NCBI GenBank assembly: GCA_021323335.1
Contig: JAJTCN010000036.1
Location: 1 to 64,000 of the forward strand
From: Ramlibacter sp.
GTDB taxonomy: Bacteria > Pseudomonadota > Gammaproteobacteria > Burkholderiales > Burkholderiaceae_C
Direction: 5' to 3'
Length of the DNA stretch: 64,000 nucleotides
The translations under genes and the position numbers were made by a program. Below are positions 9,839 through 42,543 of this stretch, piece by piece. The notes below the pieces were generated by a model, which saw nothing but the letters and a program-made list of their open reading frames with translations, was not told the DNA's origin and ran no database searches. Position 1 is the stretch's first letter, and each line of letters starts with the position of its first letter.

Positions 9839-10699
9839 TTACTGCAGCAGCCTCTCCGGATTCGCATCCAGCTTGGCCAGCGCGTCGCGCGTTGCGCGCA
9901 CGGTCAACGCCTCTTCCTCGGTCGGCACCAGCAGGCCGGCCTGCAGGTAGGCGCCCAGCCGGCGCAGCGGCATGAGGTAGCAGTAGCCGTCGCTGGCGGC
10001 GAACAGGTGCAGCTGGCGGCGGTCGCTCGCCCAGCTGTACTGCACCTGCCGGATCTTGCCGTTGTGGTCCAGCGTGAACCAGTTGCCCGGTTGCAGCTCG
10101 TTGGCCCACGCCATCATGGCGGCATTCGGCTGCGAGCCGCCGGTGCTGATCACCTCGATCATCGAGGCGTCGATGCCCAGCATCATCTCGATGCTTTCCT
10201 GGTCCAGCGGCAGCTCGCCGGCATCGTCGTCGGAGACGAAGTCTTCGAGGTTGGCCAGGCGCTTGGTCATCTCCTCGATGCGCGCGTGCGGGATGGCCTC
10301 GGTCTTGGACAGGAAGGCGTCGGCCAGCGTGTCGCCGATGGACTTGATGTGGTTTTCCTGGTCGCCGCCGTCCAGCCCCAGCAGCGTCATGCCGCGGCGC
10401 AGGCGCGCCAGCAGGTCCGGCAGGTCCTGGATCACCTTGGCGCGGTCGTCGCGGTTCGGCTTGGCGCTGGCCGCCCACACCAGGTCGCTGGCGGACTTCT
10501 TCAGCGCCAGCGTTTCCTCGTGCTGCGGCCCGTTCTTCACCGCGGACACCGCCAGCACCTCGGCCCAGACCTTGAACAGGAACTCGCGGATCTCGTCTCG
10601 CACCGGGATGTCGCTGAGCATCTTGCGCAGCTCGATGGTGTACTGGATCGCCATCGTCTCCTTCTGCTCCACCTGCTGGGCGACGCTGACGAGCTTCAT
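9839..10699 (-). CDS. DUF1631 protein, C-terminal part in a separate frame
   Basis: A 286-residue frame that matches the C-terminal half of DUF1631 proteins: VAQQVEQKETMAIQYTIELR near the start, then IREFLFKVWAEVLA around 45-58, with a C-terminal region containing WFTLDHNGKIRQVQYSW. No function is established for the family. Its ATG overlaps the stop of the preceding DUF1631 frame (ATGA), so coupled translation is possible. In relatives as I recall them both parts are one polypeptide, with about 30 extra residues between VIEQ and VSVAQQ, so this looks like a frame break from an internal deletion and not a true second gene. Confidence 0.75.
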   Translation of the reverse strand: MKLVSVAQQVEQKETMAIQYTIELRKMLSDIPVRDEIREFLFKVWAEVLAVSAVKNGPQHEETLALKKSASDLVWAASAKPNRDDRAKVIQDLPDLLARLRRGMTLLGLDGGDQENHIKSIGDTLADAFLSKTEAIPHARIEEMTKRLANLEDFVSDDDAGELPLDQESIEMMLGIDASMIEVISTGGSQPNAAMMAWANELQPGNWFTLDHNGKIRQVQYSWASDRRQLHLFAASDGYCYLMPLRRLGAYLQAGLLVPTEEEALTVRATRDALAKLDANPERLLQ

Positions 10700-41217: not shown

Positions 41218-42543
41218 ATGGCACTCTCGACCATCTCCGCCCTGTCGCCGCTGGACGGCCGCTATGCCTCGCGGCTGGCGGCGCTGCGGCCCCTGATGAG
41301 CGAACAGGGCTACATGCACAAGCGCGTGCAGGTGGAGGTGTGCGGAGCGCGTACTTACCTCCTGGGGCTGGTGAAGAATTTCTCCGAAGCCGACGCCCTG
41401 GCCATCAAGGAGATCGAGAAGACCACCAACCACGACGTGAAGGCGGTCGAGTACTGGATCAAGTCGAAGTTCGAGGCCCGTCCCGAACTGCGCCATGCCA
41501 GCGAGTTCGTCCACTTCGCCTGCACGAGCGAGGACATCAACAACACCAGCCACGCCCTGCAGCTCAAGGGCGCGCGCGAGCAGGTCCTGCTGCCCGCGCT
41601 GGACGCGGTGATCCAGAAGACGCGCGAGCTGGCCCACGCCCACGCCGACGTGCCGATGCTCAGCCGTACGCACGGGCAGACCGCGAGCCCCACCACCGTC
41701 GGCAAGGAACTGGCCAACGTGGTGGTGCGGCTGGCGGCGGCGCGGGAGAAGATCGCCGCGGTCAAGCTGCTGGCGAAGATGAACGGCGCGGTGGGCAACT
41801 ACAACGCGCACCTGGCGGCCTGGCCGGACTTCGACTGGGAGGCTTTCAGCCGCAAGGTGGTCGAGTCGCCCGAGCCGCTCGGCCTGGGCCTGGCGTTCCA
41901 GCCGTACAGCATCCAGATCGAGCCGCACGACTACATGGCGGAGCTGTTCGACGCGGTGGCCCGCGCGAACACCATCCTGATCGACTTCAGCCGCGACGTC
42001 TGGGGCTACATCAGCCTCGGCTACTTCAAGCAGAAGCTGCGCGACGGCGAGATCGGCTCGTCCACCATGCCGCACAAGGTGAACCCGATCGACTTCGAGA
42101 ACGCCGAAGGCAACCTGGGCCTGGCCAACGCGCTGCTCCGGCACCTGTCGGAGAAGCTGCCGGTCTCGCGCTGGCAGCGCGACCTCACCGATTCCACCGT
42201 GCTGCGCAACATGGGCGTCGCGCTCGGCTACGCGGCCCTGGCCTATCACTCCCTGGGCATCGGCATGGCGAAGCTGGAGCTCAACGAGGAAGCGCTGCAC
42301 GACGACCTGGATGCCGCGTGGGAGGTCCTGGCCGAGCCGATCCAGACGGTGATGCGCCGCTACGGGCTGCAGGGCGCCTACGAGAAGCTCAAGGAAGTGA
42401 CGCGCGGCAAGACGGTGCAGGCCGCCGACCTGCACGCGCTGATCCGCTCGCTGGAGATCCCGCAGGCCGAGAAGGACAGGCTGCTGGCCATGACGCCGGC
42501 CAGCTACACCGGCAAGGCCGCCGAACTCGCGCGGCGCGCCTGA
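41218..42543 (+). CDS. purB: Adenylosuccinate lyase (with apparent internal deletion)
   Basis: Cleaves SAICAR and adenylosuccinate in purine synthesis. The 441-residue product has SPLDGRYAS at 10-18, [13 protein letters not shown] near 77-89, [15 protein letters not shown] near 98-112, the signature [19 protein letters not shown] near 281-299 and [12 protein letters not shown] near 320-331. After VQVEV (about residue 41) it jumps to a stretch ending [14 protein letters not shown]. Relatives, including E. coli PurB (456 residues), have about 18-19 more residues here. The frame is kept. The loss removes a helix segment near the N-terminus, so it may be a sequence error in an otherwise essential gene. 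Confidence 0.93.

Follow-up and report, generated by a model that had tools for sequence, protein, structure and literature searches.

Missing internal segments in genes of a draft Ramlibacter genome are most likely assembly errors

Several conserved genes in a draft Ramlibacter genome lack short internal segments that same-genus relatives retain. Based on comparison of the sequences, these missing segments are probably errors of the source genome assembly, a reading to which we assign a probability of about 0.91. The gaps extend well beyond the four genes named in a preliminary description of this DNA. The stretch analyzed here (the window) covers positions 1 to 64,000 of contig C12, which is 74,352 bases long. 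The source assembly totals 4.49 Mb over 165 contigs, with a completeness of 89.68% and a GC content of about 0.70, and looks like a metagenome-derived draft; the best named matches of the window purB are metagenome-derived Ramlibacter. Relatives are same-genus genomes, with G028, G014 and G011 as the main alignment set and G017 added at several sites. Among the relatives compared, G017 is the closest at the four window loci.

Results

Four genes in the window lack internal segments

Alignment to same-genus relatives confirmed the four internal gaps of the preliminary description, each at the place given there. Junction coordinates denote the base to the left of the junction in window numbering.

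9839..12945, minus strand: DUF1631 gene, split over two frames; 91 nt absent at 10697/10698, frame broken
20620..21764 (limits approximate), minus strand: mltA (murein transglycosylase A); 14 nt absent at 20810/20811, frame broken
40572..41136 (limits read from the sequence), minus strand: glutathione S-transferase (GST) gene; 46 nt absent at 40675-40678, frame broken
41218..42543, plus strand: purB (adenylosuccinate lyase); 54 nt (18 codons) absent in frame at 41342-41343

As had been described, three of the losses (91, 14 and 46 nt) shift the frame and one (54 nt) keeps it. The numbers of residues lost agreed with those claimed for mltA (5) and purB (18) and came out lower for the DUF1631 gene (about 30 rather than 33) and for GST (about 15 rather than 16).

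Both fragments of the DUF1631 gene match PF07793, one covering the profile up to position 443 and the other from position 468. The gap measures 91 nt against G028, G011 and G017 and 93 nt against G014. Roughly 90 nt lie between the two flanks in 51 of 58 same-genus relatives, versus 2 nt in the window, the remaining 7 having no match to the gene at all (tally read from the list of matches). The predicted protein also contains a very long glycine-rich stretch (window 11320-12260, minus strand), with a crude score (50-residue windows with >40% Gly) of 318 here; the loci of relatives for which a score was obtained have 9-227, with some of their frames truncated at the end of a locus or contig.

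In mltA, the MltA domain (PF03562) is found in the upstream frame, and the gap is 14 nt against G014, G011, G017 and G028 alike. The matched stretch is longer than that of the window in all 58 relatives, by a net 8 to 23 nt and mostly by 14, and the G017 copy matches murein transglycosylase A. Beside the gene lies an intergenic element (window 20481-20600) with direct and inverted copies of the 11-mer GCAAAAGTCGC, of which 950 kb of the assembly contain 14 copies, grouped in a few clusters (window, L290, L130, L272 and L279); it looks like a small repeat family.

The GST gene retains a GST_N domain in its upstream frame and lacks 46 nt relative to G028, G014, G011 and G017; the segment is kept in 7/7 relatives aligned (including G011 and G017). 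The purB product (441 aa) matches PF00206 and PF08328, and its gap is 54 nt against G028, G014 and G011 and 60 nt against G017. Here the segment is kept in 34 of 36 same-genus relatives (again tallied from the list of matches), the other two (G006 and G032) being unjudgeable with the right-hand piece alone listed. The window copy of purB is the sole long match in the source assembly. In G017, purB (L138 near 1723, contig C155) has 6 additional nt precisely where the window's junction lies, a short tandem duplication that none of the other aligned relatives showed.

G017 has a segment at all four sites. The preliminary description had named shorter forms in close relatives as evidence against it; we looked for such forms, and none of the four turned up in any same-genus relative where the site could be judged.

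Further gaps occur within and beyond the window

Two more gaps were found in the window.

30749..30789, plus strand: glnE-type gene; 21 nt absent in frame at about 30769/30770
41185..41205, no strand: GST-purB intergenic gap; about 55 nt absent at about 41191-41197, in poorly conserved sequence with uncertain edges

Relatives also vary at the glnE spot, where G036 differs by 3 nt. The intergenic stretch is 53-62 nt longer in relatives (55 nt against G017, with a fit of 0.60). A further place near 35025 is ambiguous, and relatives vary there too.

We compared 249 kb over five contigs (C12, C108, C61, C2 and C82) with G028, G014 and G011 under a uniform rule: a private deletion counted as clean when at least 12 nt were missing relative to all relatives aligned at the site, the flanks were conserved, and the fit was good for two or more relatives, with lengths agreeing within 3 nt. 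By this rule, 9 of 23 candidates in this assembly were clean, spanning 14-161 nt in 194,364 testable positions. Five of these lie on C12 (14, 21, 46, 54 and 91 nt) and the others on three further contigs; contig C82 yielded no clean private deletion under the same rule.

Contig C108: dcd, 128 nt missing
Contig C61: ubiA, 67 nt missing, placed against two relatives only
Contig C61: end of a glucoamylase/trehalase-like gene to start of otsA, 161 nt missing
Contig C2: ctaB, 26 nt missing

A scan for frameshifts by codon usage over 960 kb of this assembly returned nine candidates, of which two were the C61 gaps already found. Three others were tested and all three proved to be gaps.

Contig C112: kdsC, 50 nt missing, confirmed by alignment
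Contig C33: LysR-type regulator, 131 nt missing, confirmed by alignment
Contig C27: glucan phosphorylase, about 64 nt missing, with a poorer fit (0.62)

In relatives, the same scan returned 1 candidate in 306 kb (G028), 0 in 286 kb (G011), 19 in 301 kb (G014) and 0 in 80 kb each of G026, G036 and G013. It overlooked known gaps, for example those in the DUF1631 gene, mltA, GST and dcd, and therefore served only for picking sites. Overall, the private gaps are spread over several contigs and are not confined to the window.

Sequence gained in this assembly relative to its relatives was found in poorly conserved stretches or resembled repeat elements. Two elements look like intergenic palindromic repeats: one of about 60 nt, itself palindromic (L124 near 8268, contig C61), is present here and absent in three relatives at that site, and the other, roughly 95 nt long (L121 14650-14750, contig C108), recurs many times in relatives, on either strand.

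Relatives are nearly free of such gaps

Each member of the main alignment set was also treated as the focal genome. Under the uniform rule, clean deletions numbered 0 of 19 candidates in G028 (204,015 testable positions), 1 of 18 in G011 (12 nt; 198,572 positions) and 0 of 6 in G014 (209,046 positions). In a scan requiring exact lengths, the largest private deletion was 161 nt in this assembly versus 9, 12 and 15 nt in G028, G011 and G014. At three window loci, this assembly has four private deletions of at least 10 nt (14, 46, 54 and 91 nt) in 9,127 testable positions; the same scan of 88 loci from 44 relatives also gave four (12, 15, 15 and 16 nt), in 268,859 positions. The window gaps exceed chance.

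Not every count makes this separation. When lengths were left free, consistent-length deletions numbered 19 here and 11, 20 and 3 in G028, G011 and G014, and some of those in relatives also exceeded 16 nt (72 nt in G028; 27 and 31 nt in G011). These loose counts do not distinguish this assembly from the three relatives, whereas the uniform rule on flanks and fit does. Small private deletions were more numerous in G014 (55, mostly of 1-2 nt) than here (23). G014 has many private indels of 1-2 nt (L043-L046 and L162-L173), and 48 of its 55 private deletions break the frame, a pattern that might come from an unpolished long-read assembly.

The preliminary description had favored a common technical cause over independent decay. 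This view is borne out by gaps that are private to the assembly and recur on other contigs in unrelated genes, with the three relatives scanned alike nearly free of them.

Junctions are blunt and ordinary in composition

Junctions were characterized at 13 sites. Exact microhomology was 0-2 nt, with a mean of 0.62 versus 0.81 for random deletions placed in relatives; exact direct repeats at both ends with one copy left were not seen. Neither the deleted pieces (mean percentile 0.63 against random pieces of the same length) nor the junctions (mean percentile 0.56) were unusually foldable across these sites, and the GC content of the deleted pieces (0.57-0.78) brackets that of the genome. Short imperfect direct repeats near both ends were noticed by eye at otsA, GST, lysR and ubiA; these would not yield the exact product of slippage.

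The unselected set contains eight gaps that each lie within one gene (14, 21, 26, 46, 54, 67, 91 and 128 nt), and two of them are in frame, as expected without selection. The kdsC, LysR-type and glucan phosphorylase gaps were left outside this count because they had been picked as frameshifts.

No non-ACGT letter occurs in 416,712 bases examined. In further stretches, N was found only in contig C17 (G000, L271), where all 2,921 bases read N, perhaps as a withheld stretch, and none lay at or near the joins.

We also considered whether the missing pieces had been relocated within the assembly, and rejected this. For pieces of at least 40 nt (10 of the 13 sites), a search of roughly 0.96 Mb of this assembly gave no complete copy, the strongest partial match being 52 nt at 81% for the LysR-type piece, perhaps a paralogue. 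The 128-nt dcd piece is absent elsewhere in the whole 4.49 Mb (best match, 26 nt). Next to the GST and purB junctions (40678-40827 and 41278-41342), identity to G017 reaches about 94-100%, compared with about 88-90% in the rest of the region, which conservation may explain. Patching by reads of a co-occurring relative was dropped as an account, such high identity being lacking beside the DUF1631 and mltA junctions.

Discussion

Origin of the gaps

The genes affected are unrelated, are hit regardless of frame and are not confined to dispensable ones: purB, dcd, ubiA, ctaB and kdsC, all needed by a free-living cell, are among them. The short forms are private to one assembly, and the relatives that could be judged are intact. 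Random placement, blunt ends, lengths of 14-161 nt and the lack of frame preference, together with this privacy, point to joins across missing sequence. In such an assembly error, stretches truly 14 to about 160 nt apart would have been joined end to end, with neither the intervening sequence nor an N run between them, at scattered and essentially random places of a fragmented Ramlibacter-type draft. We infer that the joins bridge stretches of no or poor read coverage, either because N runs at scaffold gaps were dropped or because the assembler made wrong local joins; the lost-N version is put forward as conjecture because no N run stands at or near the joins. A local dip in coverage would be consistent with the GST and purB gaps lying so close together. 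Intact copies are probably present in the organism. Assembly error leaves as an unpredicted coincidence the 6 nt extra that G017 has at the exact purB junction, and the similar loose-scan counts and the greater number of small private indels in G014 also speak against it.

Errors of this general kind have been discussed. In the excerpt considered here, PMC7111523 treats local assembly errors and scaffolding gaps in metagenome-assembled genomes, the errors being recognized by absent read support and the gaps arising where scaffolds are joined. As in those cases, scattered draft errors here give incomplete or incorrect protein-coding genes; unlike the cases that the excerpt describes (N-filled gaps, unsupported sequence, duplicated ends and wrong repeat numbers), pieces are missing without N. 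Similarly, the excerpt of PMC11017572 attributes many supposed pseudogenes to assembly errors and implicates assembler, platform and coverage. Both cases share seeming frameshifts across many genes of a single assembly that are probably absent from the organism; that excerpt concerns frameshifts and internal stops in assemblies generally, whereas here pieces of 14-161 nt are missing from an apparently metagenome-derived draft.

Three other explanations were weighed. Technical dropout set off by hairpins or repeats, as suggested in the preliminary description, or by very high GC could draw on the short imperfect direct repeats seen by eye near some junctions and on purB flanks that could pair weakly, also by eye. 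We consider such a trigger improbable, and the tests gave it no support: foldability, GC and microhomology were all ordinary over the 13 sites, a sample that could miss a weak effect. Real and recent deletions in the sampled strain, by a process removing blunt pieces of 14-160 nt genome-wide, would account for the gaps being present in the deposited sequence with sharp edges, with no other result in favor, and we regard them as very improbable. Genes that a free-living cell needs are affected; selection on frame is not visible; the nearest relative compared has a segment at each of the four sites; and the junctions lack the signs of repeat-mediated deletion, the usual route. Slipped-strand deletion needs direct repeats at the ends of the segment and leaves one copy. 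The gaps resemble its products in that short internal segments are removed and the gene is left in or out of frame, and differ from them in that exact microhomology is at chance level.

If the deletions were real, the source population would contain cells with about a hundred recent deletions of 14-160 nt, blunt and free of homology, that also affect essential genes. Such cells would be a deletion hypermutator or carry a decaying genome that is no longer self-sufficient. The number is a rough extrapolation to 4.49 Mb from the four clean gaps on about 175 kb of contigs other than C12, and we judge such cells very improbable as well. Ordinary lineage-specific decay or natural indels at just the four genes of the preliminary description would be consistent with the 21-nt glnE gap and with the place near 35025, where relatives vary too. 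We give this almost no credence, since clean private deletions of more than 12-16 nt are almost never seen in relatives over the same regions, the gaps recur on other contigs and purB belongs to the core genes. The observations fit a draft of 165 contigs in which ends were joined bluntly where sequence was missing; they do not fit repeat-mediated deletion, gene decay or a hairpin or repeat trigger.

Implications

False gene breaks are probably numerous in this draft, so claims such as 'purB is shortened' would be wrong, as would claims that the lineage has lost genes of ubiquinone, heme or nucleotide metabolism. A read-free test for such cases is to count the private, sharp-edged gaps of one assembly against at least three same-genus genomes, with each relative swapped in as the focal genome as a control; this separates assembly error from biology. 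The finding is a warning about false pseudogenes and is biologically ordinary, of low biological interest in itself: the gaps most probably belong, as an artefact, to a single assembly and not to the bacterium.
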